This document shows positions 1 to 37,447 of a stretch of DNA of 44,729 bases, one piece after another. This DNA is from Butyriboletus loyo. Its lineage: Eukaryota > Basidiomycota > Agaricomycetes > Boletales > Boletaceae. Within the stretch, counting starts at the first letter, position 1. Each line of letters begins with the position of its first letter. The stretch covers positions 1-44,729 of the forward strand of contig JBBPSI010000199.1 in NCBI GenBank assembly GCA_038093515.1. Reading direction: 5' to 3'. Below the pieces are notes generated by a model, which saw nothing but the letters and a program-made list of their open reading frames with translations, searched no databases and was not told the origin of the DNA. The translations under genes and the position numbers were made by a program.

Positions 1-1112
1 AAATCCCGTCGCTATGTATGGATTTCACCGGGGACTACGTCCTCCGCACCCTCGCTAGCCTCTACCGTTCCTACGCCCTCGCATGCACCGTCCACACCCG
101 CCTCTGCCCCGACAACCAGCCGCCCGTGTACGCCACCGCCCTAGAGACCTCCCTGATGGAGGCTAGGGGGTACACCTTGGACATCCTTCACGCTGAGGGA
201 TTCGGGTATGTCGTGGACCAACTCCTCCCGGGCATTCTCGCGCCCGTCCTCCGCCCCATCCTCGTTGCTCTCGCTCCCAGGGAGAGAGAGTTTTATTTTC
301 AGTCCAACGACCGCATTGGGTTTCTTCGCCCCACCACTCGCGGCCCCAATCCCCCTCCTCGTCCTGCCGCAGAAGGATCTCCTCCGCCACTACCTATTCC
401 AGCGCCATCCACAAGAGATTCACCTGCGACCACGCTGGTAGCAGACTCGTCCCGTGAAACTACCGGAGAGTCCTTGGAGTCCTTTTGGACCGACGTCGAT
501 GAGCCCCAGGTCGCTCGTCGACACTCCCCTCTACCGCCTAGAACTGTGCGTCGCCAACCTCGCCAGACGCTTCTCCAGGTTGGATCTGTCCCAGGATCGG
601 TCACCCTCACTGCCGCAGGAAGGAGGATCGCCAATAGGGCCTTTCGTTCCGTCACCCCCCAACCGTCCACCCGTCGTGGAACCCCCGCCATCCAGCTCAT
701 TCCTCGAGTCACCTCCCCCATCGCCCCAATGGCTGGTTCTTCCAACTCCTCGTATGGAGCCCCGCCCCCCTACCTCGCCAATCACGGGACTCGTGATGCC
801 CCCATCGTCCTCGACGATAGATCCCCTGCCGGCAGCCCTCACCCTGCTCGACCTCGCCTCGTCCGCCTGCAACTTTGCTTCGAGTGCGGCACCATCGGCC
901 ACTTTCGTAGGGAATGCCCCAACTATACTTGCCCCTTCTGCCACCGCATTGCCCCAGGTCATATTCAGGAGTTTTGCCCTGAACGAGTATGCGGCCTCTG
1001 CGGTGCCATTGGCCATATCGTCGCCAACTGCACGTTCCGGGACGATGTCTGGGCAGATTTCAATGCCAATGATGCTTACGACTACGATGTCAACGAGGGA
1101 GAGTCTCAGTGA
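1..1112 (+). pseudogene. Gypsy ORF3 zinc-knuckle protein, partial copy with 17-nt deletion
   Basis: This is the homologue of the 416-aa ORF3 at 10498-11748, with 364 codons from an internal Met (residue 49 of the intact protein). It ends in the same three zinc knuckles (first: CFECGTIGHFRREC) and the same acidic DAYDYDVNEGESQ tail. Compared with the intact copy, 17 bases are missing just before the Met, between two near-identical hexamers (CGTATG/TGTATG). This puts the upstream codons out of frame. If translated, only the Met-49 form could be made. Elsewhere the frame is fully open, and differences from the intact copy are mainly at third codon positions. The 5' end lies outside the window. 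Confidence 0.8.
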
Positions 1113-1163: not shown

Positions 1164-1591
1164 TGTTACGGTAGTGGTATACTTTTTCCTTCCACTACCA
1201 CTTGGACTACTTCATTCACCTAGCTTGCTGCTAGTTCCCTTTGAACGGTAACAACCGTTCCAGCTTAGTCATCATTTCCCATGCACGGACGCACTTTCTT
1301 TCTTACTCCAGAACATTCTAGAGTACCTCTTTCCTCATTTGTACTTCCTCTCTCGCGACTCGATTGGGAAGCATGGTCTGTGCGCAGACCACAGTAGTAT
1401 AAAGACTCTGTCTTTACACCATGTACATTATCTAGTTCTACGCAGCAACCTGCTAGCAATTAGTTCACTTCCAGACTCTTAGTGTGCGCACTAAGACATA
1501 GTCTGAGACTTCGCCCAGAATCGTCTCCCGAGTCTCGAGGCCACTCCAGAGTGCCTCCTCGCTGTTCTGATTGTTAGCGCCCAGCGTAACA
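1164..1591 (+). repeat. Family A LTR (3' LTR of gypsy copy 1)
   Basis: 428 bp, TGTTACG...CGTAACA. It contains the palindrome GGTCTGTGCGCAGACC, a TATAAA box, the ATCTAGTTCT putative transcript start and the CTTAGTG-TGCG-CACTAAG hairpin, all in the same order as the complete element. A G-rich polypurine tract lies immediately upstream. Confidence 0.93.
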
Positions 1592-1596
1592 GCCTA

Positions 1597-3899
1597 AGAA
1601 TTTGTAACTTGGTGTTGCTTCGATGTGGTGGCCCTGCATAACGAGGGGTGGGCGTAGGATCGGGATTGATTTGGTCCTGTTTTGGGGATCTGGCATCCTT
1701 GTTCTCGTAATGCAGATGAGGGCCATTTTGTCAAGTTCGAATTCTGCATGGTGCGTTCTGCTCCATTCCAGCACACCGCCTTTGCCCGCCATCATCTTTT
1801 TTAGCTTTTCGTTGGCTTCTTCGAAGCTTTTCCCTCTTGCTGCGTACGCTGTGTTGTCGATGAATCCCAGGCCTAGCTTGTCCTTTTCTCCTTCGACTAG
1901 CCTGATTAGGTCGGCGTTGTAGAAGAGAAATGCGATCAGAGAGATGGGGCATCCTTGGTCGATGTTATGCTGGTAGCGCACAATAGCTAGCAGGCGAGCA
2001 CTTATAGGGGCTCGAGCCTAATGAGGAAACTAGCCGACTCACGTAGACGACACTATCGGGTGTCTTGCAAAGCAAGTGTCGGCGAGATCTTGAGTGGTGG
2101 CGACCAGACGAGATCGAGCAGACTCTTATCGGCTTTATCGGCAAGAGAAGGGTATACTGCTAGATTACTATGCACTTGGTAGATGCGTAGAATTAGCTAG
2201 AGAACTCGTACTAGTCTAAGTGCAAGTATATATACTGATACATATTGTGCACAGACCGAGCTGTGCGTGGCAGCGAAGGGCAAAGGGCTATGAGTCTGTC
2301 CGAGTCATAGCGGTGAATGGAGAAGCGGCAAAGTGCCGGTAACGAGGGAGCGAAGCTCCAGGTAAGGTGGCGACATCGTCAGCGAATGAGAAGTGCTGAA
2401 CGTGAAGTGACGATGTCCATGAGGCGAGCCCCACAGGGCGAAGGGTGCGCGAACGGCGGAGCCCTTGGATACGGGTCTCGACGCGAAGGTAAGGACACGT
2501 CGTAATCTAATCACGTGCTAGTCACGTGATGCAAGAAATGTCATTGGTCAAATAAAGAGGGACGCGACAGCTCAACTGAAGGTCCGGCCCGACGGGGCGA
2601 CGAGACAGGGGCTATCTCAGTGTAGCGTCACTGAGACTCTCAGAACGACTGGGGAAGTGGATAACGTCCACTAGGCGACTAGGGAGCGGGCGATGGGTGG
2701 CATCGCAAGACAGCGGGGGCGGCGGGAGCGCGTGAGCGTGGGAAAACGAGTGGCGGGGTACGCTTAGGGGTAAAACTGTAACAGTCGAGGCCGATGGGGA
2801 TTTGGAAGGGGGTGGAGGTGAAGTCGTTGAAGGATAGGGATGTGCGTCGGCCCTCTAGGCGTCGTTTGTACCAGTCTGTGTATTCCTGGGGGATTCCTTT
2901 CATTCGCATGTTGTGCAGGAGGCACTCCACTACTACACTGGGGAAGGCTGCTTTTATGTCTAGGAAGAGAATGGATACAAATTTGTCAGTAGAGTGTGCC
3001 CATGCGTCATAGGTGAATTTGGTTAGAAGGTGGATTGAATCTACCGTTGATCTGCCTGGTCTGCCTCCAAAGTGCGTGGCTGGTAGTAGGTTGTGTTCCT
3101 CCGCTAGGTATGCTATGTCGTCCGCGATGCAAGATGATAGGACCTTTGCTAAGGTGTCTAGTAGGGTGATTGGTCTGTAGGCCTTGGGGATGGAGTAGTC
3201 GGGTCGGCCTGGTTTCTGTAGGACGACCGTTGAGGACAGTTTCCATTCATCTGGGTAGAAATTGAGGTCAAAAGTGGAGCGGAAAATGGGGCCTATGAAT
3301 GGTACTAGAGTGTCAGCGTTTTGGGTGAATACAACATTGCAAATGCTGTTTGGTCCTGGGGCTTTGTATGGGGCGAGACGTTTGATTGCGTGGTGGATTT
3401 GATCGTTGGTGATGTTTTGGAAGGTGCAGACGGGCTTGGGGTATTGTGCTTCGGCTGGGGCGGTGAGTTGATCTGGTAGCAGTTTGAAGAAAGTGTTGTA
3501 TAGCATGTTGCTTTTCTGTTGGTTGGTTTGGTTGTGGTTGGCGGGGTGTTCTGGGGAGCGGCGGAGGTTGGGTATGCACGATATATAGTGGTTTTCTGGC
3601 TCGTTTACTAGATACTTATGTGCGTTCCATAGGTTACTCTGGTCCACCTCTTCTAGGTAGTCGTTCCAGTGGTCTAACTTAGCCTTTTCCACCTTTGCTA
3701 CAAACGCGTTGCAGGCTTCTTTATGTTCAGCATGGATCGGGTGGTTCCTTTCTTGCCTTTTTGCCTTGGCCTTGTAGGCAGCTTTCCGTAGCGCTTTGTT
3801 TGCTTTTTCCAGGTCAGGGGACCACCATCGTTTGGCGAAGGGGGATGGCTTGGTTAGGGGTATGGACTCCTCTATTGTGGATAGGATGGCGTCATTCAA
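1597..3899 (-). pseudogene. LINE reverse transcriptase, interrupted by solo LTR
   Basis: On the minus strand the frame runs from about 3899 to 2784, then continues after the solo LTR from 1962 to 1597. The break falls inside the conserved turn IPIGLD|QGCP, and one copy of GTCGA lies on each side. Motif A is FLDIKAAF. The catalytic motif C reads GFIDNTA instead of the usual FxDD, so the second Asp is Asn. The frame is otherwise open on both sides of the LTR, so the insertion looks recent relative to the LINE. The C-terminal part is lost at the left, where gypsy copy 1 is inserted. Not functional as it stands. Confidence 0.85.
1963..2783 (-). repeat. Solo LTR, family B (target duplication GTCGA)
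   Basis: 821 bp, TGTTATG...CTGTAACA as read on plus. It is flanked by GTCGA at 1958-1962 and 2784-2788. By the position of its TATA and GGTCTGTGC motifs it points to minus. It carries two CACGTG boxes 11 bp apart (2512-2517, 2523-2528). Other copies: 13518-14337 and 37448-38267. No family B internal sequence occurs in the window. Confidence 0.93.
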
Positions 3900-4900
3900 T
3901 TCTCGGAGTTGTTGGATGGCGTTTTCTTTTGTGGTGAGGGTCTGAGGGATGGGGAGGTTCAGGAGTTTGGGTGCGAGATTCTCGCTGAATTTTTTCCAGT
4001 CTGTCGCTCTGTAGTTTCATTTTGGGGGGTGGTTTGACGTTTCGGGGGTGAGATTGAATGTGGTGATGATGGGGAAGTGGTCTGTCTGGACTGGTGTGAG
4101 GTGGTCCTTGACGCTGCACTTTATGATTGAGTCCTTTAGGTGTGGGGAGCAGAACACGTTGTCCGGTCGTGTGTAGTTGCTTGAGTTGTTTGCCTTGAGT
4201 GTTGGAATACCGGGGGGGAGAGCCATTTGGAGGTTGTACATCAACAGGATGTCGAGGAGTGGTTTGGCAGCGTCTAGATTGGCAGGGGTGAAGAGGTGGT
4301 GGTTGTCTGGGTGGTCCCACAGTGGGTGGTGGTGGTTGAAGTCCCCCAGCAGGATGAGTCCAGTGATCTCATTGTTTTCAGCAATGTTGAGTTGTGCTGT
4401 TAGGTGGTTGGCTAGGAGTTCAAGGGTGTGGGGGTATTTGCCATTGTTGTAGATGTTGTAGAAGCGTGTTTTGCTTGTGCCATTTTTTTATTTTGATGGC
4501 CACGATGTCCAGTGAGTTTAGTGGGATGATCCTCCAATGGTCCTTGGAGAGGTTCTTGTTGACTAGGATTGTTGCTCGGGTGTGTTTGGTATTGTTGGAG
4601 TTGTGAGTTGTGGGGTAGACGATGTTCCACTTTGGGTTTGACACTGTTAGGTTAACTCTGTTGATGGCTGGTTCCTGTAGCATGGCGAGGTCGTAGTCGT
4701 TCGGGCTGAGGCTATGTAGAAGATGTTGTTGGGCGGTGGGCGATTTGTTGAGGTTTTGTTGCCAGACGTGTAAGCTTCTTTTTGGGTTTTGGTTTTGTGG
4801 TTGGTTTCCAATCATAGATCCTGGTTGATGATGTCTTCGCTGATGGGTCGGCTGGGGGAGTAGTAGCGGGAGGATTCGTCTAGGGTGATGTTTGTTGGGG
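3900..4900 (-). pseudogene. LINE APE-type endonuclease domain, frameshifted
   Basis: The minus strand shows endonuclease landmarks spread over more than one frame: an LQEP glutamate motif (near 4670), LLGDFNHHHPLWD (near 4310-4350) and TDHFPI (near 4065-4085). These correspond to the metal-binding Glu, the Asp-Asn pair and the terminal Asp-His of AP-endonuclease-like LINE domains. The upstream part is Asn/Gln/His/Pro-rich. Frame changes between the blocks make it a pseudogene. It leads directly into the reverse transcriptase. Confidence 0.75.
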
Positions 4901-4920
4901 TGGCCCTTCCAGAGGGTGCT

Positions 4921-5122
4921 GAGTTTCAGAATTGGTAAAGTCCAAGCAGGTGCACCGAGGGCAACGAAGGATGCAAGGGTAAACCTATCAGTGGAAAGAC
5001 TCACTGAGAATATGAGAGTGAGAGTATCGCAAACAGAGTATAAGGAGCAAGGCTCAACTTAGAGATATCGCAGTAGTGATGATAGAACTGAAAGATCTAG
5101 AGAAAAAGCGACAAGCCATAAG
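4921..5122 (+). mobile_element. KDZ-element 3' fragment, left half (split by gypsy insertion)
   Basis: This matches 36173-36374, where the same sequence continues the reading frame of a KDZ transposase C terminus (in frame with the ...LFRTE block). Together with 12224-12479 it forms one fragment. The complete gypsy element is inserted between bases 5122 and 12229, with ATAAG duplicated. Confidence 0.75.
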
Positions 5123-5331
5123 TGTTACGGTAGTACTCTACTTTTTCTCCCCACTACCGTTAGGACTCTTACATTCGCCTAGCCTCTTGCTAGTTCCTGT
5201 TGAACGGTAACAACCGTTCGTACTTAGTCATCACTTCCCGCGCACGGACGCACTTTCCTTCACACTCCGGAATCTTCTGGAATGTTCCTTCCATATTCGT
5301 ACTTCCCTTCTCGCGGCTCGATTAGGGACAT

Positions 5332-5396
5332 GGTCTGTGCGCAGACCCCAGTAGTATAAAGGCTCTGCCTTTCCACCATGTACATTATCTAGTTCT
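5332..5396 (+). promoter_or_regulatory. LTR core promoter: palindrome, TATA box, inferred transcript start
   Basis: GGTCTG-TGCG-CAGACC (5332-5347) is a perfect 6-bp-stem palindrome, followed by TATAAA at 5355-5360. ATCTAGTTCT (5387-5396) begins 32 bases after the start of the TATA box and is the reverse complement of the primer site, so it is the inferred mRNA 5' end. The start site itself is inference. Confidence 0.7.
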
Positions 5397-5428
5397 ACGC
5401 AGCCTACTGCTAGCAATTAGTATCATTC

Positions 5429-5462
5429 CAGACTCTTAGTGTGCGCACTAAGACATAGTCTG
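5429..5462 (+). other. Conserved R/U5 RNA hairpin
   Basis: CAGACT-CTTAGTG-TGCG-CACTAAG-ACAT-AGTCTG: a 7-bp inner stem with a TGCG loop, plus a 6-bp outer stem across an ACAT bulge. It lies in the inferred 5' leader and is retained in the family A LTRs checked, including the decayed copies. In one (28498) the loop has changed to TGTG but the stems hold. Confidence 0.7.
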
Positions 5463-5548
5463 AGACTCACCCAGAATCGTCTCCCGAGTCTCGAGGCCAC
5501 TCCAGAGTGCCTCCTCGCTGTTCGATTGTTAGCGCCCAGCGTAACAAA

Positions 5549-5558
5549 AGAACTAGAT
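5549..5558 (+). other. Primer-binding site complementary to the element's own 5' end
   Basis: AGAACTAGAT begins 2 bases after the 5' LTR and is the exact reverse complement of 5387-5396. No TGG-initiated tRNA-type site is present at this position. The same site and complement are present in the copy at 24829. In Tf1-type chromoviruses the mRNA 5' end folds back to prime reverse transcription; this layout predicts the same. Confidence 0.75.
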
Positions 5559-5949
5559 CTTCCTCTCGCTTCTGCTCTTCAGCAGTAAAGCCGCCCCACC
5601 CTCGCCCAACATTTCCATCCAACGTCCCAGACGTGTCGGTCGTTCTTTCCGTGTTCCCTCCCCCGAACCGGAACCCATCGTCGTCGACAACCCATCGCCG
5701 CCGCACTCTCCCGCCCCGCCAAACCCTGAACCCCAGTTTTCCCCTCTGCCCCAGTCTGACCCCGAACCCTCTTATCAACCCGAGGACCAAGGTCTAGGGC
5801 AGGAAGACGAACCAGCACCAAGCGACGACGGTTATAGTGACGACTGGCTCGATAGAACCCCCCACGTCTCTCCACACCCTTCCCGCTCTCCCTCTCCGCC
5901 GTACTATCCTCCCGCAGATCCCTCCGACGACGAAGAAGACAGCAGCGAT
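5557..5949 (+). other. AUG-less N-terminal extension of the gag frame
   Basis: The gag frame is open for 131 codons from just after TAG at 5554 up to the first Met at 5950, and has no ATG in this stretch. No ATG was seen in any frame from the inferred start 5387 to 5950. The encoded sequence is Pro-, Ser- and Asp/Glu-rich. About 86-100 residues align in frame with the copy upstream of 25607, with several gaps that are all multiples of three (shared blocks PSYQP, QGLGQ, RSPSPPY). This suggests real translation from a non-AUG codon or after splicing; unproven. Confidence 0.55.
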
Positions 5950-6945
5950 ATGTCGGACAAAAAGAATATCGTTCCCAAGGACTTCACCAGTCTCAACGAA
6001 GACGCATCACGATGGCTCCTCGCCATGCGCACCTACTTCGCTGCTAACCAGACGGCATTCCCCGACGACGAGTCCAAGATCAACGCCCTCCTCATGAAAA
6101 TGAGCGAAGGAAAGGGCAAGACGTTCTCTGAAGGATGGATGAGTCTTCTCCTCGACGGTCACCCTACAGCACAACAAAGGGAATTCTCCACTGTCTGCGA
6201 CGACTTCCACCGAGTCTTCCACCCCTTCGACGTAGGAGAAAGTGCTCGCATCGACCTAGGGAACCTAAACCAGAACAGGGCCAACAAGAAAGACGGCTAT
6301 GACACATACGTCACGGAGTTCCAGCTCCTAGCTGCCAAGTCAGGGATCATTGATGAAAAGGCACTCATCGAATGGTTCATCCGCAGTCTTGACCCCCGCC
6401 TCGCTGAGTCTGTCCTCTCTTGCGAGAAGCCCCCTACCACGCTTGCCGGATGGGCCAAGAAAACATCTGCTTTCCATGCGCAGCATAAGCGCATCGACGA
6501 CCTTCGCGCAGGAAAACGCTACATCCCCACGTTCTCCTCCTCCTCCAAACCCTCGCCCAACAGAAGGGACCCCAACGCAATGGACGTGGACGCAGTCCGA
6601 CTTACTCCCGTACAACGCGCGGAGTACATGAAACAGAACAAGTGTTTCGTATGCCACCAAGTCGGATGTCGTTCAACCAATCATCCTCGCCCCCCTCGCA
6701 ACGGGCAGAACTCCCGAGGACCGCCCTCTCGCCCCCCTCGCAACCCTCAGCGCACACGCGCCGCCGTCGTCACGCAACCCGAGTCAAAGCCCTCCCCACT
6801 CGTCGACTATTTGTCCGAGTTGAAAGGTCGAGGCACCCAACAAGAAGATGTCCTGAACGTGCTCAAGGCATGTTTCAATGAGGATGAAGAAAAGCTGCCC
6901 GTCGCAGCAACCAAGGTGGCCGAAGAATGGCCAAAGGATTTTTAG
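5950..6945 (+). CDS. gag: Gag (capsid) polyprotein
   Basis: 331 aa from the first ATG of the inferred mRNA; the protein may be longer upstream (see 5557-5949). It would form the virus-like particle that packages element RNA in the cytoplasm. The central part (MSEGKGKTFSEGWM, then FHRVFHPFD, LGNLNQNR, YVTEFQLLAAKSG and IEWFIRSLDP) has the look of a Ty3/gypsy capsid domain, ending at about residue 165. Near residues 232-245 there is a knuckle with permuted ligands, C-x2-C-x4-C-x4-H, instead of CCHC. The spacing is conserved in the copy at 25703. A basic Arg/Pro-rich stretch follows. The stop at 6943-6945 lies inside the start of pol. Confidence 0.9.
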   Translation: MSDKKNIVPKDFTSLNEDASRWLLAMRTYFAANQTAFPDDESKINALLMKMSEGKGKTFSEGWMSLLLDGHPTAQQREFSTVCDDFHRVFHPFDVGESARIDLGNLNQNRANKKDGYDTYVTEFQLLAAKSGIIDEKALIEWFIRSLDPRLAESVLSCEKPPTTLAGWAKKTSAFHAQHKRIDDLRAGKRYIPTFSSSSKPSPNRRDPNAMDVDAVRLTPVQRAEYMKQNKCFVCHQVGCRSTNHPRPPRNGQNSRGPPSRPPRNPQRTRAAVVTQPESKPSPLVDYLSELKGRGTQQEDVLNVLKACFNEDEEKLPVAATKVAEEWPKDF

Positions 6946-9900
6946 AAAGGAGGGAAGTTTCGACGTCTTCGCCTCCTCTTGTAATCGCCCCTGTAGTTTT
7001 GTCAAACCCCAATGCACAATCAATTCGAGTTCCAGTATCATTATTCGTGCATGAAGGAGGTCAAATCGTCGACACATTCGCCCTGGTGGACAGCGGCGCT
7101 AGCGGATGCTTCATAGACCGGGATCTAGTGAAGCGAAAGAAACTGCCGATGGAACGGCTACCCAAACCACTAAGTGCCCAGAACGTGGACGGGTCAAACA
7201 ACCAAGGAGGAGTCATCAGATACAAGGTCAACATCTCCATCAGGATTGGAGAAACCGAGGAGGAACGGAGTTTCCTAGTCCTCAACATTGGAAAAGAAAA
7301 CATGATCCTGGGATTGCCGTGGCTACGAGAGGCCAACCCGGTAATAGATTGGGCCACTGGCCACATCGATCTCCCTGATCAAATCAAGAAGCCCCGACAC
7401 GACTCCCCTCGGGCAATCGCTCAACGGTACCTGGTACGGTACCTTGACTTGGACCCAGACTCCAAGATCGCCAAGCTCTGGAAGAAGCGAGTAGACGCTT
7501 CAGCAAGGGAAGCTTACCCTATTCGAAAAGCAACCATCGCGACCGAGATCGCCGCCCAAGTCACCAAGGAGAAAGCAGTTCTCCCTACCCCGTTCGCTGC
7601 CTTCGCAGACGTTTTTGACAAGAAGAACACCGAGGAACTTCCCCCGTCCCGATCGTTCGACCACGCCATAGACCTCGACAAAGACTTTGTACCCAAAGTC
7701 GCTAAGGTCTATCCTCTGAACCCGAAGGAATCAGAGGCATGTAAGGCGTTCGTCGAAGAACACCTCAAGTCAGGGAAGATCACCCCCTCCAAGTCCCCTC
7801 AGGCAGCCCCCTTCTTCTTCGTATCCAAGAAGGATGGCTCGCTACGCCCCTGTCAGGACTACAGGTACCTGAACTCGCATACCGTCAAAAACGCCTACCC
7901 TCTCCCCCTCATCTCCGACCTCGTCGACCGTCTCAAAGGGTCGAAAATTTTCACCAAGATGGATATCCGCTGGGGATACAACAATGTCCTCATCAAGCCG
8001 AACGACCGCTGGAAGGCGGCCTTCATTACTCCCCAAGGGCTGTTCGAGCCCACCGTAATGTTCTTCGGACTTTGCAACTCCCCAGCCACGTTCCAAGCGC
8101 TGATGGACCACATCTTCGGCGACCTCATGGCAGAGGGTTGGCTGATTATCTACATGGACGACCTCTTGATTCATTCTGCCACCTCTGCGGAACACGAAGC
8201 CCGTACGATCCGCGTCCTAGAGAGACTCAGGGAGCACAAACTGTTTCTCAAGCTAGAAAAGTGCTCGTTCGACGCCGAAGAAGTCGAGTACCTCGGCATG
8301 ATGGTCCGAGAAGGACAGGTCAAGATGGACCCCACCAAATTGAAGGCCATTCGCGAATGGAACCCCCCAACTTCCGTGAAGGCTGTCAGGTCCTTCATAG
8401 GCTTCTGCAACTTCTATCGAAGGTTCATCCAAGACTTCTCCCACATTGCAAAACCGCTCCATGACTTGACCAAGAAGAACTCTCCCTGGGCCTGGACCCC
8501 GGCTTGTGAACAAGTGTTCCAAGCAATCAAGCAGTCGTTCTTACGACAACCCGTCCTCTCCATGCCCGATGTCACCAAGCCGTTCGCCGTTATGATGGAC
8601 GCCTCACTTACTGCTACCGGAGCGGTACTTATGCAGAAGGACATCAACGGCGACCTCCATCCCTGTGCCTACCTCTCGAAGATGCTCTCACCAGCAGAGC
8701 GCAACTATGATATCTACGATCGCGAGTTGCTCGCTGTCATCCATGCGCTGGAAGAGTGGCGCCACTACCTGCGAGGTACTGGTCATCAAGTAGAGATTCT
8801 CACCGACCACAAGAATCTCACATATTTCCGCCAACCCAACAAGTTGTCCCGCCGGCAAGCGTGCTGGCTCATGTTCCTGCAGGATTTCGACCTGCATTTC
8901 CATCACATTCCGGGTACTCAAATGGGCCCGGCCGATGCTTTATCTCGCCGCGACGACGTTGACACTTCCACCGACAATCAGGAAGTCACCCTTCTCCCAG
9001 AAAATCTCTTCGCTCGTAAAATCGACGTCGCCCTCGCCGAAAAGATTGCCGCCTCCACCCCCCATGACCCGATGATCAAACGGTGCATGCAAGCTCTCTA
9101 CGAGGACTCGCCCCTCTTCCCCAAAATGAATGCCGGCGATTGGGACTTTGACGGTAAAGAATTATACTTCCGCAAGAAACGGTATATTCCCGAGGCCGCG
9201 CGTGTCGACCTCATCCGATCCCTGCACGAAAGTCCCACCGGAGGCCACGGGGGCATATTTCGCACCCAGAACCTGGTACAGCGAGATTACTGGTGGCCAG
9301 GCATGGCTAATTTAGTCCGCCGTTTCGTTTCTGGCTGCGCTGTTTGTCAGGCGCATAAAGTTAATACTCATCCCACCGTTCCCCCTCTCACCCCGTTAGC
9401 CAGCGTGGCGTCTCGCCCTTTTGAACAAGTCTCGGTTGATCTTATCACCAGACTTCCCCCGTCTTTAGGATATGATTCAGTCATGGTCGTGGTAGACCAT
9501 GGGCTTACGAAGGGGGTAATTTATTCCCCTTGCAACAAAGACATCGATGCGGCAGGAGTTGCCAAGTTATTTTTCAAAACAGTCTTCCTTCGATTCGGCC
9601 TACACTCTTGTTGCATCTCGGATAGAGGCCCTCAATTCGCATCCGCCTTCGCTAGAGAGCTCGCAAGGCTCCTAGACTACGACCTCGCCCTCTCCTCCGC
9701 GTACCACCCTCAGACTGACGGAGAAATGGAACGGGTCAACCAGGAGCTAGAAACCTACCTACGGATCTTCTGTGATGGCCATCCAGAACGATGGGCCGAA
9801 CTCCTTCCTATGGCCGAGTTCTCCCACAACTCCATGACGCACTCGTCAACCAACGTAACTCCGTTCTCTCTGATGGTCGGGTATGAGCCGAGGTCTTATC

Positions 9901-10487
9901 CTCCAATCGGAAAGACGTTCCTCCCCGCTCTTGAGTCTAGACTCTCGGAGCTCATGGGAGCCCGAACGGAGGCTTTAGAAGCCCATGAGAAGGCACGCCG
10001 GTTGATGAAGGAACGGATTCAGTCCAAGTTCCGCCCGTGGAAGACCGGCGATAAGGTCTGGTTGGAAGGGCGCAACCTTCGACTCAGGTATCCGTCAAAG
10101 AAGCTTGCGCCCAAGAGGGAAGGACCGTTCGAGGTCACTCAGGTGATATCCCCTGTGGCGTATAGACTCCGGTTACCATCAACATGGAAGATCCATGACG
10201 TCTTCCATGCGTCACTTCTCACCCCTTATCGCGAAACCGTGGAACACGGCCCCAATTTCACAAACCCTCCGCCGGAAGAAATAGACGGAGATGAAGAATA
10301 CGAGATCGATCGTATCTTATCACACCGCGGCTCCAAGGGACGCCGCCAGTTCCTGGTTTCCTGGAAAGGGTACTCCGCAGCGGAGAACACCTGGGAGCTG
10401 AATGGGAACTTGGTCCATGCGCAGGCTCTGCTGAAGGCTTATAAGCTGCGACACCCCAAGGATTTCCCTTCCCCATCTTCTCAGTAA
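6927..10487 (+). CDS. pol: Pol polyprotein: protease, RT, RNase H, integrase, chromodomain
   Basis: 1186 aa. Protease: VDSGAS with Asp55. Reverse transcriptase: [10 protein letters not shown] and YMDD at about 409-412. RNase H: MMDAS Asp near 558, YDRELLAV and LTDHKNL. Integrase: HHCC zinc finger (H..H..CAVCQAHK), then catalytic Asp838, Asp899 and Glu935, with D-35-E spacing between the last two. A chromodomain (about 1117-1172: EYEIDRILSHR, FLVSWKGY, ENTWE) places it among chromoviruses, whose chromodomain is thought to steer integration to marked chromatin. The frame is minus one relative to gag, and its ATG (6927) overlaps the gag end by 19 bases. Expression by frameshift or by re-initiation is possible. 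No stops or frameshifts: likely active. Confidence 0.95.
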   Translation: MAKGFLERREVSTSSPPLVIAPVVLSNPNAQSIRVPVSLFVHEGGQIVDTFALVDSGASGCFIDRDLVKRKKLPMERLPKPLSAQNVDGSNNQGGVIRYKVNISIRIGETEEERSFLVLNIGKENMILGLPWLREANPVIDWATGHIDLPDQIKKPRHDSPRAIAQRYLVRYLDLDPDSKIAKLWKKRVDASAREAYPIRKATIATEIAAQVTKEKAVLPTPFAAFADVFDKKNTEELPPSRSFDHAIDLDKDFVPKVAKVYPLNPKESEACKAFVEEHLKSGKITPSKSPQAAPFFFVSKKDGSLRPCQDYRYLNSHTVKNAYPLPLISDLVDRLKGSKIFTKMDIRWGYNNVLIKPNDRWKAAFITPQGLFEPTVMFFGLCNSPATFQALMDHIFGDLMAEGWLIIYMDDLLIHSATSAEHEARTIRVLERLREHKLFLKLEKCSFDAEEVEYLGMMVREGQVKMDPTKLKAIREWNPPTSVKAVRSFIGFCNFYRRFIQDFSHIAKPLHDLTKKNSPWAWTPACEQVFQAIKQSFLRQPVLSMPDVTKPFAVMMDASLTATGAVLMQKDINGDLHPCAYLSKMLSPAERNYDIYDRELLAVIHALEEWRHYLRGTGHQVEILTDHKNLTYFRQPNKLSRRQACWLMFLQDFDLHFHHIPGTQMGPADALSRRDDVDTSTDNQEVTLLPENLFARKIDVALAEKIAASTPHDPMIKRCMQALYEDSPLFPKMNAGDWDFDGKELYFRKKRYIPEAARVDLIRSLHESPTGGHGGIFRTQNLVQRDYWWPGMANLVRRFVSGCAVCQAHKVNTHPTVPPLTPLASVASRPFEQVSVDLITRLPPSLGYDSVMVVVDHGLTKGVIYSPCNKDIDAAGVAKLFFKTVFLRFGLHSCCISDRGPQFASAFARELARLLDYDLALSSAYHPQTDGEMERVNQELETYLRIFCDGHPERWAELLPMAEFSHNSMTHSSTNVTPFSLMVGYEPRSYPPIGKTFLPALESRLSELMGARTEALEAHEKARRLMKERIQSKFRPWKTGDKVWLEGRNLRLRYPSKKLAPKREGPFEVTQVISPVAYRLRLPSTWKIHDVFHASLLTPYRETVEHGPNFTNPPPEEIDGDEEYEIDRILSHRGSKGRRQFLVSWKGYSAAENTWELNGNLVHAQALLKAYKLRHPKDFPSPSSQ

Positions 10488-10497
10488 ACAAACAAAG

Positions 10498-11748
10498 ATG
10501 GCCATTCCTCCCGCAGAAAACAACGCCCCACTTCCGGCTCAGCCCCCCGTCCGCTCTTCTCGCCTCCCTGTTTCTTCTCGCCGCGTCCTCTACGCCGCAG
10601 TTTTAGAAAATCCCGTCGCTACGTATGCTCTCGAGCAGCGTATGGATTTCACTGGGGACTACGTCCTCCGCACCCTAGCCAGTCTCTACCGTTCCTATGC
10701 CCTCGCCCGCACCGTCCACACCCGCTTGTGCCCCGACAACCAACCTCCCGTGTACGCCACCGCCCTGGAGACCTCTTTGATGGAGGCCAGGGGGTATACC
10801 CTAGACATCCTTCATGCGGAAGGATTCGGCTATGTCGTTGACCAACTCCTCCCCGGCATCCTCGCGCCCGTTTTGCGCCCCATTCTAGTCGCTCTCGCTC
10901 CTAGGGAAAGGGAGTTTTATTTTCAGTCCAACGACAGGATTGGATTTCTTCGCCCCACCGCTCGCGGCCCCAATCCCCCTCCTCGTCCTGCCGCGGAAGG
11001 ATCTCCTCCGCCATTACCTATTCCAGCGCCATCCGCAAGAGATTCACCTGCGACCACTCTGGTAGCAGATTCGTCCAGGGAGACCACTGGAGAGTCCCTC
11101 GAGTCCTTTCGGACCGACGTCGACGAGCCCCAGGTCGCTCGTCGACACTCCCCCCTACCGCCTAGGACTGTGCGTCGCCAACCTCGCCAGACGCTTCTCC
11201 AGGCTGGATCTGTCCCGGGATCGGTCACCCTCACCGCCGCTGGAAGAAGAATCGCCAACAGGGCCTTTCGCTCCATCACCCCCCAACCATCCACTCGTCG
11301 TGGCACCCCCGCCATCCAACTTATTCCTCGCGTCACCTCCCCCGCCGCCACCGCCGCCGCCGCAGCTGGTGGCTCTAACTCCTCTTCGTACGGACCCCCG
11401 CCCCCCTACCTCCCCGGTCGGGGTACTCGTGATTCGCCTATCGTCGTCGACGACAGATCCCCTGATCCCAGCCCGGGCGCTGCTCGACCTCGCCTCGTCC
11501 GCCCGCAGCTCTGCTTCGAGTGCGGGACCGTCGGCCACTTCCGAAGAGAGTGTCCTAACTACACGTGCCCCTTCTGCCATCGAATCGCCCCTGGTCATAT
11601 TCAGGAATTTTGCCCCGAACGTGTATGCGGCCTCTGCGGAGCCATTGGCCACATCGTCGCAAATTGTGCCTTTCGGGACGACGTCTGGGCAGACATCAAT
11701 CCCGACGACGCTTACGACTACGATGTCAACGAGGGGGAGTCTCAGTGA
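10498..11748 (+). CDS. ORF3: Pro/Ser-rich triple zinc-knuckle protein after pol
   Basis: 416 aa. The ATG lies 10 bases after the pol stop, in a different frame. Residues 1-150 are mixed and partly helical (SLYRSYALARTVHTRL, ILAPVLRPILVAL). Residues 155-335 are Pro/Ser/Thr/Arg-rich and probably disordered. Three zinc knuckles follow: C339-x2-C342-x4-H347-x4-C352, C357-x2-C360-x6-H367-x4-C372 and C377-x2-C380-x4-H385-x4-C390. The tail is acidic. There is no signal peptide and no convincing membrane anchor, so it is not an obvious Env. The knuckles suggest RNA or single-stranded nucleic-acid binding, i.e. a separate nucleocapsid-like or accessory protein (inference). Homologues occur at 1-1112 and 36981-39410. 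I do not recognise a named family. Confidence 0.88.
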   Translation: MAIPPAENNAPLPAQPPVRSSRLPVSSRRVLYAAVLENPVATYALEQRMDFTGDYVLRTLASLYRSYALARTVHTRLCPDNQPPVYATALETSLMEARGYTLDILHAEGFGYVVDQLLPGILAPVLRPILVALAPREREFYFQSNDRIGFLRPTARGPNPPPRPAAEGSPPPLPIPAPSARDSPATTLVADSSRETTGESLESFRTDVDEPQVARRHSPLPPRTVRRQPRQTLLQAGSVPGSVTLTAAGRRIANRAFRSITPQPSTRRGTPAIQLIPRVTSPAATAAAAAGGSNSSSYGPPPPYLPGRGTRDSPIVVDDRSPDPSPGAARPRLVRPQLCFECGTVGHFRRECPNYTCPFCHRIAPGHIQEFCPERVCGLCGAIGHIVANCAFRDDVWADINPDDAYDYDVNEGESQ

Positions 11749-11786
11749 GGGGACCATTCAAGTTGTGGAGTCGGAGTCTCCACCAT

Positions 11787-11799
11787 GGGAAGGGGGTAA
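11787..11799 (+). other. Polypurine tract
   Basis: GGGAAGGGGG plus TAA directly abuts the 3' LTR. It is the expected plus-strand primer and is also present before the LTR at 1164. Confidence 0.8.
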
Positions 11800-12223
11800 T
11801 GTTACGGTAGTACTCTACTTTTTCTCTCCACTACCGTTAGGACTCTTACATTCGCCTAGCCTCTTGCTAGTTCCTGTTGAACGGTAACAACCGTTCGTAC
11901 TTAGTCATCACTTCCCGCGCACGGACGCACTTTCCTTCACACTCCGGAATCTTCTAGAGTGTTCCTTCCATATTTGTACTTCCCTTCTCGCGGCTCGATT
12001 AGGGACATGGTCTGTGCGCAGACCCCAGTAGTATAAAGGCTCTGCCTTTCCACCATGTACATTATCTAGTTCTACGCAGCCTACTGCTAGCAATTAGTAT
12101 CATTCCAGACTCTTAGTGTGCGCACTAAGACATAGTCTGAGACTCACCCAGAATCGTCTCCCGAGTCTCGAGGCCACTCCAGAGTGCCTCCTCGCTGTTC
12201 GATTGTTAGCGCCCAGCGTAACA
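11800..12223 (+). repeat. 3' LTR, family A
   Basis: 424 bp, TGTTACG...CGTAACA. Nearly identical to the 5' LTR. TATAAA at 12032-12037. Followed by the ATAAG target duplication. Confidence 0.95.
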
Positions 12224-12479
12224 ATAAGGGCTGTCTTATATACAGTACATGAGTGTTTGTACTTATGTTCTGTATAGTACCTTTATAAGGTATAGTATGA
12301 AATACATGACGATATGATAGAGATAAGAGATAAGACTAAGCATATCGTCCAATAGCATAATAAGAGCTATTTGTAATGTGACAAGTGTGACAGAGTCTAG
12401 ACAATGATGTCATATTGACTCGTCTAGAAACGTAATGGCTGTAAGTGAAATACAGAAATAGAACACTACTGTTTCAACA
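12224..12479 (+). mobile_element. KDZ-element 3' fragment, right half
   Basis: This continues 4921-5122 across the gypsy insertion and matches 36370-36627 base for base over most of its length. Both copies stop being alike right after GTTTCAACA (12479 and 36627), so this is probably a true element end. AT-rich, with no coding frame. Confidence 0.7.
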
Positions 12480-14999: not shown

Positions 15000-15019
15000 A
15001 AAAAAAAAAAAAAAAAAAA
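15000..15019 (+). repeat. LINE poly(A) tail
   Basis: A run of 20 A directly before the duplicated segment. It marks the 3' end of the plus-strand LINE. Confidence 0.85.
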
Positions 15020-17355
15020 GTACCTACATGGGCCGATGGATTGATAGGCTACCATGTTTCAAGTGAACATGGCAACCCTCGAATGCCCGAGCTCATCCCT
15101 TTGCGACATGCCGTCATGACGCCCACCTGTTAGGAACCTTTGGTTGTATCATATACGTTGTTGCTTGTCCTCCAAGATTGTGAACGTGCTGATTGCTACA
15201 AAAGCCCTGCGTATGTACTTGAAATGATTTGCAGCACATAACAAAATCGCACGTGCAGACAACGTAAGCTCCCTCGCGCAACTCTCAAGATCAGGCCTAT
15301 GTTACGCGTCGCTGGTAAATACTTCATACATTGAACTGAGAAGACGAGGCATATGCATAAGTAAAATAAATATCCGAGTCACCGTCGAAAGTACCACCAT
15401 TCTCTATTATCCGCCACCGCCCCAGCGCAAGTGCCTGTCCCCAGTTTCTACCCAAATTCCTCGTTCAAGCCTGACGCATACCATCCTCCAAAGGTTCGAG
15501 TCGAATAGCCCCCGATTCGTTCACGTCCCCTTCCACGACTTGATCCTGTCCCGGGGTGACATCTACGAATGCGATCGCAGACACCGCGGCATCACTGGCA
15601 ATGGGCTGCGACAACACACCGAATCCGGTGTCAACTCCCTCCCAGCGCCCACGAAGGTCGCGGTCATACAACTCTCGCACGCTGATGATGAACCGAGGCA
15701 TCATAGGGCATATGGTTACGACTGACAGCAGCCACAAGAAGGGCAGCAAAGTGATGCTTTGTGTGGAACCGGTGGGGAGGATGGCAGCCACATTGTAGAA
15801 CATATATCTAGCAGTTCAAAGTGATTAATTGTTGGGAAAGCACTCGAGGGTAGGATGCATGGGGAAATGTTATCATGACGAACGAGAAAGTGTGGTAAAG
15901 CGAGACGCACACAAAGAAATAAACAACTCCATCGCTGACGAGTTGACGCGTATACCGATTAGGTTGCCACTGATTGGTTGCTTTGTACATCTCGACCGAT
16001 TGCGTCCAGGTTTGCATAACAGCGAGAACCAAAAGCATAGCACTGAGAATGAATCGCGGGATTTTGGAATACGTGTAAATGTTGTGTGGAATGTTGATGA
16101 CACCACTGCAATACGAGACATTCATAACTTGAACAACTGTGACTGAAGTAAAGGGTGCAAGGAAACAAAGGGTCACCTTCGTGAGATACAGTGGCGCATC
16201 CAGTACAGCACGGGACGTACTAGAGGTGTAGGTGCTGGGATTGTAATAAATGCCTGCAACAACAGAGGAAAAAATAACCTGTTGCACGTAGATGAACAGG
16301 AGGACCCAAAGAATCCGTTTGGATCGATTCCACATTGCATACACCCGCAGGATCATAACCACTGTGATTGAAACCATAATCAGAGGTCAGGAATTAGGGG
16401 GGTAGAGCAACTCACAGTCGGCAGCATTATAAAATATTTGAAATGTCCAGACAGATACCATCAATAGTATGGTGCCTTGGAATATTCATGTCTCATGCTG
16501 ATATTGTTGCGGGTGATAAACGAATCTGCTTACATCTATGCAACTATTATTAATATAGTTTTCGATTGCAATTTAGATGCATACGTCTGCATAGAAGACC
16601 GTCATAAACGACAGACAAGGTGCGAAGCAGACAAACTGACTCTGACCGGGCCAGGGAGAAAGGTAGTACCAACTGCAAACATGTCTGATCAGCTCAGTCA
16701 ACCTCCAATACAATTCTGAACATACAGAATCCATCAAGACTTGATCACGGAATGACCGTTAGCTGTATAAATTTCTATGCATCATAGCAACAATCGACGT
16801 ACATAACGAAACAAAGACCGAAATAACGAACCTACAGAACAGTGGATTTAGAATGTACAATGGAGTTCCCTGAACCTTTACGTACCAGAACAAACATTGT
16901 AGAGACCTGGGTCCAGGGCCTGCACTGTAAGACTGTCAGGACCTATCTCGCGCGATAATTGTTGCTTCATTACCCATACATAGTCTACCTTTGAATATTG
17001 TCAGCCTACAGATATGATGCACAGGGTGAAACAACATTCCTCTCTCGAAAAGGTGAGGACTGTAGTAGTGGGATCGCAATGCTCAGTTCAGCGTGAAAAG
17101 GAATCCTAGCGTGTGCACCAGTCTCGGCGCTGCATCACTCACAATAATCGTATACAACAGCAGTGATGACACCAACTGCGTTGGTGTATAAGATCAATCC
17201 TTGACGGAAGGTATGAACGAACGCACGGGATACATAGTTATTCATCTGGATAAGCTCTAAAGTAGACTGCAGGTCAGAGGACATCGCACAGAGTCAGATT
17301 CGAAGAGAGAGGGGGGTTTTCCAGCGATTCAGTGATGAGTTCCGCTGCAGTTATA
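15020..17355. repeat. Segmental duplication, copy A
   Basis: Collinear with 21476-23805 at roughly 85-90 percent identity by eye, starting TACxTACATGGGCCGATGG. It holds the DUF6533-like gene copy A. The left edge coincides with the LINE poly(A); the right edge fades near 17355. Confidence 0.9.
15465..17284 (-). pseudogene. DUF6533-like multi-pass membrane protein, copy A (one frameshift)
   Basis: This is a spliced gene on minus. Exon 1 starts at 17284 (MSSDLQSTLELIQMNNYVSR...) and ends VVYDYC before GTGAGT. Small exons then encode VDYVW, RPWTQVSTMFVL and RYFGLCFVMYVDC. One exon near 16410-16530 is followed by VVMILRVYAMWNRSKR (15808-16377), and the last exon (15465-15803) holds PRFIISVRELYDRDLRGRWEGVDTGFGVLSQ. 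Several hydrophobic helices and the YDY...VDYVW and RELYDRDLRG signatures fit the basidiomycete DUF6533 membrane proteins, whose role is unknown. In the exon near 16450, CCAAAGG of copy B is CCAAGG here, causing a 1-nt frameshift and an early stop. Its exon 1 is intact. Confidence 0.75.
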
Positions 17356-21080: not shown

Positions 21081-21475
21081 TTGGTTCAATCAACCTTTCG
21101 GGGATTGCACGCGACACAGAACTGCAACGATCATTCTGGGTTCTGTCCTACAGTGATCTGGAAGATCCATCTGGTCCGTCCAATCCTCAGCCCCATTGAA
21201 CACAACTCAGTTTTGTTATTGACCAGCTGACGGCAATCATGTCACGAGGAGCATACGACCTTCTGAAACGAATACTGAACCAAGAGTGAGCTTGAACCTT
21301 GTCCGAGGACTATGGAAAGACCAAGAGGACGACTTCTATGCGGGATGCTGAATGCCAGGGTAGAACTCTTACACCGATGGTTTTTCGCTCACCTGTAAGA
21401 CATTCCTACGAGATCGGTGTAGGCACTGCATTTCCTCACAACCACGACCGCAACCACCATGCGAGACACGCTCCA

Positions 21476-23805
21476 AGTACTTACATGGGCCGATGGATTG
21501 ATAGGCTACCGTGTTTCAAGCGAATAGGGCAACCCTCGAATGCCCGAGCTCATCCCTTTGCGACATGCCGTCATGACACCCACCTGTTAGGAACCTTTGG
21601 TTGTATCGTATACGTTGTTGCTAGCCCTCCAAGATTGTGAACGTGCTGATTGCTACAAAAGCCCTGCGTATGTACTTGTACTTGAAATGATTTGCAGCAC
21701 ATAACAAAATAGCACGTGCAGACAACGTGAAGCTCCCTCGCGCAACTCTCAACATCAGGCCTACATTACGCGTCGCTGGTAAGGCATGCATTGGACTGAA
21801 AAGACAAGGCATATGCATAGGTAAAATAGATATCCGAGTCTCCAAAGTACCACTATTCCAACACCCCAGCGCAAGTGCTCGTCCCCAGCTGCTACCCAAA
21901 CTCCTCGTTCAACGCTGACGTATATCATCCCCCAAAGGTTCGAGTCGAATCGCCCCCGATTCGTTCGTGTCCCATTCCACGACTTGATCCTGTCCTGGGG
22001 TGACATCTGCGAATGCGACCGTGGACGCGACCGTGTTTTCACCGGAAACAGATTGCGATAACACACCGAATCCGGTGTCAACCCCCTCCCAGCGTCCACG
22101 AAGGTCACGGTCATACAGCTCTCGCACGCTGATGATGAATCGAGGCATCATAGGGCATATGATTATGAGAGACAGTAGCCACAAGAAGAGCAGCGAAGTG
22201 CTGTTTTGTGTGGAGTCGGCGATTATATTATGCACATTGTAGAGCGTGTTTCTAGCAGTCCAAAAGAAAATAACCGAGGGGTCAGTTGTTCGGCAAGCAC
22301 TCGAGGGTAGGATGTATGGGGGAATGTAATCATGACGAACGAGAGTGTGGAAAAACGAGACGCACACAAAGAAGTAAATAATTCCATCTCTGACGAGTTG
22401 ATGCATATACCGATTAGGTTGCCACTGCTTGGTTGCTTTGTACATCTCGACCGACTGCTTGCAGGTTTGGATAATAGCGAGAACCAAAAGCATAGCACTG
22501 AGAATAAATCGCGGGATTCTGATATACGTGAAAATCTTGGATGGAAAGTTGATGACACCATTGCAATACGAGACATTCATAAGTTGAACAACTGTGACTG
22601 GAGTAAAGGGTGCAAGGAAACAAAGGGCCACCTTCGTGAGACGCAGTGACACATCCAGTATAGCTCGGGACGTACTAGAGGTGTAGGTGCTGGGATTGTA
22701 GTAAATGCCTGCAACAACAGAGGAACAAATAACCTGTGGCACGTAGATGAACAAGAGGGCCCAAAGAATCCATTTGGATCGATTCCACATTGCATACACA
22801 CGCAGGATCATTACGACTGTGGGAATCATGGTCAAGGGAAGGGATTTAGCGGGTACAGTAACTCACAATCAGCAGCACCAATAAATATTTCAAACGCCCA
22901 GAGATATGCCACCGAGACTATGGAGCCTTTGGAATATCCATGTCTCGTGCGGATAGTGTTGCAGGCAATAAATGAATCTGCTTACATCTATGGAATTGTT
23001 ATCAATATGGTTTTCAATTGTAATTTAGATGCATACGTCTAGACAGAAGACCGTCATCAGCGACAAACAAGGCGCGAAGCAGAAAAACTGACTTTGACGG
23101 GACCAGGGAGAAGGGTAGTACCAACTGCAAACATATCTGATCAGCTCAGTCAACCTCCAATACAATTCTGAACATACAGAACCCATTAAGACTTGATCAT
23201 CGATCAACCATTAGCTGTATAATTTTGTATGCATCATAGCAACAATCGACGTACATAGCGAAAGAAAGACCGAAATAACGAACCTACAGACCTGTGAATT
23301 TAGAATGTGCAATTGGGTTTCCTGAACTTTGACACGCACCAGAACAAACATTGTAGAGACCCGGGTCCAGGGCTTGCGCTGTGAGGCCGTGAGAGACCTA
23401 TCTCGCTCGATAACGGTTGCTTCCTTACCCATACATAGTCTACCTTTGAATACTGTCAGCCCACAGACATGATGCACAGTGAAATAACATGCCTCTCTCG
23501 TAAGAGTGAGGACTGCAGTGGTGGGATTGTAATGGTCACTTCAGTGTGAAAAGGATAGCATGTGCACTGACAGCATCACTCACAATAATCGTACACAACA
23601 GCAGCAACGAGAATAACTGCGCAGGTCTATAAGATTAAGCATTGACGGAAGGTATGAGCGAGCGCACGGGATACATAGTCATTCAACTGGATAAGCTCCA
23701 AAGCGGCCTGCAGGTCAGAGGACATGAGAAAGATTCAGAGTCGAAGAGAGGGAGGTTTTCCAGTGATTCAGTGATGAGTTTCCGGGCTGCTGGCAGTTGT
23801 GTATC
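21476..23805. repeat. Segmental duplication, copy B
   Basis: Direct-repeat partner of 15020-17355. Homology starts near AGTACTTACATGGGCC and fades after the exon 1 leader (near 23805). Confidence 0.9.
21909..23725 (-). pseudogene. DUF6533-like multi-pass membrane protein, copy B (stop in exon 1)
   Basis: Same exon plan as copy A. Exon 1 is 23725-23584 (MSSDLQAALELIQLNDYVSR... to VVYDYC). Then come VDYVW, RKPWTRVSTMFVL, VRYFGLSFAMYVDC, an exon near 22870-22965 (SFIACNTIRTRHGYSKG...FIGAADC) and a long terminal exon to 21909. The terminal frame is 308 codons with about five hydrophobic helices and ends in RELYDRDLRGRWEGVDTGFGVLSQ plus an acidic tail. A GT-AG intron of about 89 bases may be retained inside that long frame (LVRHDY... 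to the codons before NTLYNV). The exon that is frameshifted in copy A is intact here, but exon 1 has TAG (about codon 33) where copy A has TAC. If the TAG is real, both copies are broken. Confidence 0.75.
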
Positions 23806-36627: not shown

Positions 36628-36919
36628 GAACTACTATACATGGCTAGACTAAAGAAGAGAAGCACAGCGGTGATTAACCACACAAGGCGTGGGGATCAAA
36701 AAAAAGAAGAGAAGTAAACGGAGATTAAATACATGTGTCGTGACGTCATAGAGTCTAGGCCTGGTCTAGGCCATGACATCATATGCTTAGTCAGCATGAG
36801 ATCATATGTAAGTTCCCACGATCACATGCACTATGTCACATGACCTTTGAAAGTGAAAGTTGAAGCGAAACGACTAAGTCCAAAATGAAAGTGTACAAAT
36901 AAATGTTATGATTATAACA
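36628..36919 (-). repeat. Family C LTR fragment, minus
   Basis: Matches the first 290 or so bases of family C LTRs in reverse, ending GATTATAACA at 36919. Cut on its left by the KDZ end. Contains TGACGTCA-type and CACATG sites decayed from CACGTG. Confidence 0.85.
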
Positions 36920-36980
36920 GCTAGGCGAATGAAGTAGTCTGAGTGGTAGTGGATGGAAAAAGTATACCACTACCATAACA
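36920..36980 (-). repeat. Family A LTR fragment, minus
   Basis: 61 bp matching the reverse complement of the family A 5' end (AGTATACCACTACC...ATAACA). Abuts ORF3 of the next gypsy copy without a polypurine tract. Confidence 0.85.
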
Positions 36981-37447
36981 AATATGACCTGGGGCAATGT
37001 GGTGGCAGAAAGGACATGTGTAGTTGGGACACTCCCTACGGAAGTGGCCAATGGTGCTGCACTCAAAGCAAAGTTGCAGGCGGACGAGGTGAGGTCAAGC
37101 AGGGTGAGGGCTGCTGACAGGGGATCTGTCGTCGAGGATGATGGGGGCATCACGAGTGCCATGGGTGGTGAGGTAGGGTGGTGGAGGTGCGTATGAGGAG
37201 CTGGCAGAACCAGCAGTTGTGGTGAGGGGGGAGGAGATCCATGGAATGAGCTGGATGGCAGGGGTTCCTCTGCAAGAGGGCGGTTGGGGGGTAATGGACC
37301 ATACAGCTCTATTGGTGACCCTTCTTCCAGCGGTGGTGAGGGTGATGGACCCAGGGATAGCTCCAACCTGGAGAAGTGCCTGGTGAGGTTGGCGACACAC
37401 AGTTCAAGGCGGTAGAGGGGAGTGTCAACAAGCGACCTGGGGCTCAT

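Follow-up and report, generated by a model that had tools for sequence, protein, structure and literature searches.

Most LTR retrotransposons get by with gag and pol. The window analyzed here, which is the whole 44,729-nucleotide stretch of Butyriboletus loyo DNA (contig C199 in our genome search), holds a chromovirus with a further long frame behind pol, and this raises the question of what that frame encodes and what it does for the element. Our data indicate that the frame, referred to here as ORF3, is a genuine third gene, predicted to encode a separate 45-kDa protein that consists of an N-domain of approximately 125 residues, an Arg/Pro-rich linker and a compact triple-knuckle array.

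The complete chromovirus lies at 5123-12223 of the window and contains gag and pol, with ORF3 placed between the latter and the 3' LTR. It is laid out as follows:

5118-5122, no strand: left target site duplication, ATAAG (flank comparison)
5123-5546, plus strand: 5' LTR, 424 nt, starting TGTTACGG and ending CGTAACA (LTR alignment)
5387-5396, plus strand: ATCTAGTTCT in the LTR, the predicted transcript 5' end that would anneal to the primer site (8 of 8 copies having both parts)
5549-5558, plus strand: putative self-priming primer binding site, AGAACTAGAT (copy alignment)
5950-6945, plus strand: gag, 331 aa, Retrotrans_gag, with a C-x2-C-x4-C-x4-H motif at residues 232-245 (ORF list, Pfam)
6927-10487, plus strand: pol, 1186 aa, with protease (PR), reverse transcriptase (RT), RNase H, integrase, SH3 and chromodomain (ORF list, Pfam)
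10488-10497, plus strand: spacer of 10 nt separating the pol stop from the ORF3 ATG (ORF list, copy comparison)
10498-11748, plus strand: ORF3, 416 aa, lysine-free (ORF list, genome search, copy alignment)
11787-11796, plus strand: polypurine tract GGGAAGGGGG before the 3' LTR (sequence inspection, copy alignment)
11800-12223, plus strand: 3' LTR, 424 nt (LTR alignment)
12224-12228, no strand: right target site duplication, ATAAG (flank comparison)

The two LTRs agree in 420 of 424 columns and, as in other chromoviruses, have TG...CA ends and a short target duplication (424-nt LTRs, ATAAG twice). Joined together, the flanks of the element match, at 97%, a copy of the target repeat at approximately 36.2-36.6 kb that lacks the insertion. 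The sequence AGAACTAGAT behind the 5' LTR is complementary over 10 nt to ATCTAGTTCT within the LTR in all eight copies that have both parts. By eye, the nearest other family in this genome carries AGAATTAG at the primer site (L040) and CTAATTCT in the LTR (L031), a matching change in both arms; this fits self-priming from the predicted transcript start, presumably in the manner of Tf1. Pfam recovers the chromoviral order of PR, RT, RNase H and integrase with a C-terminal chromodomain (Chromo E 1e-13, RVT_1 1.9e-30, Integrase_H2C2 8.9e-19). The element resembles fungal chromoviruses (Metaviridae) in its LTRs, 5-bp target duplication, domain order and self-complementary primer site, and differs from them by a conserved triple-knuckle third gene after pol.

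The gag and pol frames differ and overlap by 19 nt. The surrounding stretch, 6915-6960, has a conserved run of TTTTT, and a pol ATG stands there ahead of the end of gag. Since the pol ATG is absent in one copy (L028), frameshifting and reinitiation are both possible for pol. A sequence-only reading of the window had noted that Gag has only a permuted knuckle. We found the same C-x2-C-x4-C-x4-H motif, and its four metal-binding residues are invariant across six aligned Gags.

ORF3 occupies exactly the coordinates given in that reading, and the 3' LTR begins 51 nt past its stop. Its parts are:

10570-10947, plus strand: conserved N-domain, residues 25-150, helical in low-confidence models, w 0.047 (alignment, structure models)
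10948-11502, plus strand: linker, residues 151-335, rich in Pro/Ser/Thr/Arg, net charge +12 (alignment, composition)
11512-11667, plus strand: three zinc knuckles, residues 339-390, with w 0.046 over residues 336-395 (Pfam, alignment, profile)

The three CCHC knuckles described earlier are indeed present, as C339-x2-C-x4-H-x4-C352, C357-x2-C-x6-H-x4-C372 and C377-x2-C-x4-H-x4-C390. Pfam zf-CCHC places only the first of them (29.3 bits against a cut-off of 20.8), and the middle one has a non-canonical spacing, with six residues between C and H. The pattern is whole in 27 of 28 open copies; the remaining copy, L030, lacks the last Cys, in its truncated end. Outside this set, L049 has lost the first Cys of the third knuckle. 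Structure models of ORF3 (mean pLDDT 33.8 and 46.1) are too poor for fold identification.

We found ORF3 in three of the four copies of the element within the window, as the sequence-only reading had counted. The fourth, at approximately 25301-28198, lacks it, together with the 3' part of pol and everything beyond. Besides the copy described above, those with ORF3 are:

18-1112, plus strand: second copy of ORF3, 364 aa; the contig begins inside the gene, so the N-terminus is missing (ORF list, Pfam)
36836-39410 (approximate), minus strand: third ORF3 copy, split into pieces by insertions (repeat comparison)

Searching the 30.3-Mb assembly with ORF3 turned up 404 first-look candidates; the best 100 were scored. 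No internal stop was found in 87 of the 100, although scoring favors intact copies and this is not the share among all copies. For 89 of the 100, the SH3 domain of pol was found on the same strand, 254-319 nt ahead of ORF3; since the other 11 include contig-end copies and interrupted pol, and since 150 of 396 SH3 candidates were scored, those 11 are neither evidence for an unlinked gene nor proof of linkage. A 3' LTR follows ORF3 in all 22 copies of 20 fetched regions. The N-domain of a diverged open copy (L034) retrieved 150 scored sequences from 273 candidates, at 73-100% identity and all with E < 1e-62; more distant forms may hide among the candidates beyond those scored. ORF3 is thus a family trait and no one-off capture, as had been proposed, given pol just upstream in 89 of 100 scored copies and a 3' LTR behind 22 of 22. 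It is not confined to host genes apart from pol, and no unlinked host homologue appeared among the scored copies.

We found that this trait is restricted to part of the chromoviruses in the genome. The nearest other family found has a pol 72% identical to that of the window family. Of 612 first-look candidates in the search for it, 104 rows were scored, and 29 of these belong to the family, at 83-100% identity to the query. In five of its loci (L040, L041, L042, L043 and L031) pol is followed after approximately 42 nt by a polypurine tract and directly by the LTR, with no ORF3 in between. A sixth, L044, gives no pol-LTR junction because the start of its LTR is missing, and L042 has pieces of ORF3 beyond its 3' LTR. 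Since the sister pol runs into the 3' LTR without ORF3, ORF3 is lineage-specific: within this genome it is confined to one lineage, and gain there and loss in the sister family are both possible. A gene that is under selection in one family and missing from its sister offers a well-defined example in which accessory-gene gain or loss in fungi can be tested.

Sister-family loci include L040 (C33:165500-172716) and L031, L036 and L039 (C26:89500-99600). In L040, which lies at the end of a contig, the family has a single frame that spans 1745 codons between stops. The first approximately 560 residues of the sister frame, before the protease, gave no Pfam gag or zinc-knuckle match; by eye, two C-x4-C motifs followed by histidines stand near its N-terminus. 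In a more distant chromovirus (L029/L035; 44% and 36% identity over two pol stretches), Gag carries an ordinary CCHC knuckle, and the 1.4 kb past the last recognized pol frame held no open frame of at least 130 codons.

ORF3 is under purifying selection. Across 28 open copies, a set that excludes five loci repeating the window or other loci, w is 0.115, and each of the 378 pairs has a dN lower than its dS, with a between-copy dS of about 0.5. The N-domain (w 0.047) and the knuckles (0.046) are close to gag (0.041) and above pol (0.019; eight copies each, one sister-family sequence removed from pol), and higher values are found in linker segments (0.17-0.33) and in the C-tail (0.22). Choosing open copies biases against stops, yet this hardly explains a w of approximately 0.05 in two separate parts of the protein. 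Within the linker, third-position change is low and first-position change is raised. These rates would suit a stretch that codes in two frames, or else a linker under relaxed constraint in an element that recombines; we prefer the latter. A +1 frame considered as a second coding frame was rejected: its amino acid identity among 12 selected copies is 0.731, below the 0.889 of ORF3 and inside the 0.687-0.834 range of the other four frames. The copies also share no initiating Met. Against synonymous shuffles, single copies gave p 0.033-0.153 for this frame.

The +1 frame (11066-11887) is open from approximately codon 189, past the ORF3 stop and into the LTR. It is stop-free behind a conserved stop near codon 188-199 in 25 of the 28 open copies; the further stops lie at codon 200 in L018, 312 in L034 and 388 in L030. 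An antisense frame was also set aside: it gave p 0.007-0.037 in six of seven copies of or near one ORF3 type and not in the other type, which we take as chance. Fourfold-site divergence is 0.02-0.11 in pol codons 1-200 (6927-7526), compared with 0.16-0.40 in most other pol, and synonymous divergence is likewise low in ORF3 codons 151-350. These stretches may reflect a hidden constraint (in pol, perhaps a cis-acting signal) or recently shared segments; since the copies are mosaics, uneven ages of shared segments explain the pattern at least as well as constraint.

How would ORF3 be translated? The distance from the pol stop to the ORF3 ATG is 7-11 nt in all 25 copies measured (24 copies and the window; L012, which ends at a contig edge, was left out), and ORF3 stands in all three frames relative to pol, which excludes a frame-specific fusion of the two. 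An A stands at -3 of the ATG in 11 of 11 aligned copies. The short distance and the A at -3 suggest that reinitiation is most likely: on the full-length RNA, ribosomes that terminate pol translation would resume on ORF3 after 7-11 nt. Termination-reinitiation is described in caliciviruses, a hypovirus and the non-LTR element SART1 in PMC5972666. Against it, two copies (the second copy at L009, and L026) have further in-frame ATGs within pol. The short spacing could be plain compactness, and it suits a simple reporter test of reinitiation. We found no support for a structured signal: RNAalifold predicted 24 pairs in 11 copies with a covariation term of 0 (2 of the 24 pairs have one both-sides change), folding at the start of ORF3 is no more stable than in shuffled sequence (z +0.98), and Rfam gave no match on 5100-12300.

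A spliced subgenomic mRNA, as for env or the CERV protein of Cer1, is a possible though less probable source of ORF3. In 22 of 25 copies the pol stop is immediately preceded by a pyrimidine-rich stretch that ends in CAG, which makes splicing possible, and according to the sections of PMC5408684 and PMC10309623 on post-pol genes these are often spliced in other LTR elements. Against splicing, two copies with an open ORF3 (L006, L026) have CTG in place of CAG and one copy (L028) has TAG, and in all 11 aligned copies an A (codon CCA) interrupts the tract at one position. Splicing would also require an intron of approximately 5 kb, which is unusual in fungi. We retain reinitiation as the preferred route.

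We searched for relatives of ORF3 at several levels. Against PDB, the best match of the ORF3 profile is the knuckle array of AIR2 (E 2.6e-5), followed by TUT7 (0.0032), acetyl-CoA synthase chains (0.078-0.18), retroviral nucleocapsid (NC; 0.15 or worse) and lin-28 (0.27). The links between knuckles are four residues long in ORF3, and four and five in AIR2. A protein search with whole ORF3 gave nothing at E 1e-3 among the 7988 scored candidates that share most words with it, a list that proline-rich words may crowd. Residues 18-150 gave nothing at E 1 among 1372 candidates. In the same database, pol residues 250-700, used as a control, found 7017 relatives among 7967 scored candidates at E 1e-20, and several named fungi, including Lyophyllum, Sparassis and Moniliophthora, are among the 120 pol relatives listed. 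Since the protein search needs shared five-residue words, distant ORF3 relatives may be missed. No relative was confirmed among 52 pattern stretches of viral contigs, and none was found among 43 of bacterial and archaeal genome contigs; PADLOC gave no match at E 0.1, and NCBIfam gave four weak matches far below cut-off.

We favor, with a probability of roughly 0.62, a reading in which ORF3 is an accessory protein that would bind RNA or cDNA of the element, act alongside Gag and be translated by reinitiation. The zinc knuckles and the arginine-rich linker point to nucleic-acid binding, and zinc knuckles are able to bind proteins as well. Such a protein would aid protection, export, packaging or reverse transcription of the element RNA or cDNA. 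ORF3 might instead be a structural protein, in effect a second Gag, that would assemble together with Gag or provide the nucleocapsid function. Its succession of helical domain, basic linker and knuckles repeats the order found in Gag, and the knuckle of Gag itself is unusual. We consider this unlikely, however, since ORF3 has no match to Pfam capsid/gag models or to the Gag profile (the structure models being too poor for a fold match), Gag retains its invariant Cys/His motif, the sister family does without ORF3 and the knuckle array is nearer to AIR2 than to NC. The earlier suggestion that a nucleocapsid function had moved from Gag to ORF3 is not supported, given the same motif, invariant in the six Gags aligned, and the AIR2-like array. 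It is weakened further by the Gag and ORF3 profiles, which share only a 19-column match at chance level, and by the sister family, which has neither ORF3 nor a Pfam zinc knuckle before the protease. An added NC-like role of ORF3 is possible. ORF3 shares CCHC knuckles with retroviral NC; its reading frame lies apart from the others, behind pol, and may be any one of the three.

The match to AIR2 and the similarly short links between knuckles raise another alternative, that ORF3 counters or imitates host RNA surveillance, with an AIR-type array competing with TRAMP for element RNA and so averting nuclear decay. AIR1 and AIR2 of TRAMP resemble ORF3 in their tandem knuckles with very short links; they are host genes, and nothing like the ORF3 N-domain was matched in them. 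AIR proteins have five knuckles, and ORF3 has three; AIR proteins also bind the Trf4/Trf5 poly(A) polymerase. The N-domain of ORF3 matches nothing, similarity between short Cys/His arrays may arise independently, and there is no indication of where ORF3 acts. An AIR2 query in this genome (150 of 218 candidates scored) led to eight inspected matches, all of them ORF3 copies or fragments, and no host AIR gene was recognized for a comparison of descent. We regard such mimicry as quite unlikely. An env-like membrane protein, which the location after pol and one hydrophobic stretch would suggest, is very improbable given the knuckles, an N-terminus that by eye does not resemble a signal peptide and the lack of env models among the Pfam hits of ORF3. 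The hydrophobic stretch, residues 117-135, averages 1.81 on the Kyte-Doolittle scale and contains the five best windows; it is proline-rich, includes an arginine and lies inside the helical domain. Of the sequence-only claim that ORF3 has neither signal peptide nor membrane anchor, the first half agrees with the look of the N-terminus by eye, and the second is likely but, with this stretch, not certain. It is just as hard to believe that ORF3 is a passenger, a captured host fragment useless to the element. Its lack of a known homologue and its absence from the sister family would fit a passenger; purifying selection between copies as far apart as a dS of about 0.5 (w 0.115), and 87 stop-free copies among the 100 scored, would not.

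We next consider two further properties of ORF3. The window ORF3 has no Lys and 44 Arg in 416 residues, and it is one of 24 among the 28 open copies that are free of Lys; each of the other four has one, from a Glu-to-Lys change found in that copy alone. At similar GC3, Gag has 24-26 lysines and pol 74-77, about as many as Arg, against which the absence in ORF3 is extreme (binomial 9e-14). Lysine deserts prevent ubiquitylation in other proteins according to the abstract-level statements of PMC10169902, and mycobacteriophages, whose hosts have pupylation, are described as rich in them in part of PMC10665810. Among the ORF3 copies, the number of new lysines confined to a single copy, 4, is close to the expectation of 5.1, so active selection against Lys is not supported.

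The second property is the existence of two ORF3 types. Among 11 aligned copies, divergence is 0.16-0.20 per site between types and 0.08-0.13 among copies of one type. No type split is seen in leader, gag or pol (0.05-0.12 for all comparisons), and it is this absence that carries information, since the types were defined from ORF3 itself. In a 27-copy set, the between-type excess is clear only at approximately 10700-11100 and weak or absent elsewhere, with some flanks being other DNA. The comparison sets 10498-11748 against L019, L021, L053 and others. The first 348 residues of the window pol are 100% identical to C109-like elements that carry the other type of ORF3 (88%), and identity along whole copies is patchy (84-100%, L053 compared with L021). 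The backbone thus recombines and ORF3 keeps two forms. A more specific version of the accessory reading, which we hold only tentatively and think rather unlikely as a whole, is that ORF3 might be a dedicated RNA-handling gene, a counterpart of Rev, Rex or CERV. It would be lysine-free against ubiquitin-dependent removal, and its two long-lived types would be traded among recombining elements in an arms race with a host factor, for example RNA surveillance. If ORF3 does protect or export element RNA, it would bear on evasion of fungal RNA quality control.

Extra ORFs behind pol are known in plants, rotifers and worms, and as such are not new. A survey of fungal chromoviruses from 2010 (PMC2864245) states that most have one or two ORFs, and the legend to its element maps names an 'add. 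ORF' of unknown function; by legend wording alone, this is, like ORF3, an additional ORF of fungal chromoviruses. LTR elements of bdelloid rotifers likewise have family-specific post-pol genes, partly non-envelope and absent from the earliest branches, but the products named in the descriptive sections of PMC5408684 are a GDSL esterase, a DEDDy exonuclease, and coiled-coil and membrane or env proteins, with no zinc-knuckle arrays among them. CERV of Cer1, a Ty3-type element, is also an accessory protein and not an envelope; it has a cysteine loop that is essential, and genomic RNA export requires it. Unlike ORF3, it comes from a five-exon spliced mRNA and partly from the gag frame, and no CCHC array is described in the portion of PMC10309623 devoted to it. 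In plant LTR elements an extra sense ORF of unknown function lies between pol and the 3' LTR, though these ORFs are described as env-like and 'zinc' is absent from the text of PMC7264820. Among the matches listed from literature titles and abstract openings, a scope that leaves subscription papers and repeat libraries outside, there was no triple-knuckle post-pol gene of a chromovirus.

Other parts of the window hold further repeats. Two copies approximately 6.45 kb apart, at 15018-16776 and 21475-23228, are 86-96% identical by stretch and encode, judged by appearance only, a multi-pass membrane-like protein on the minus strand. Open frames at 1574-5004, also on the minus strand, resemble by eye a broken non-LTR retrotransposon.
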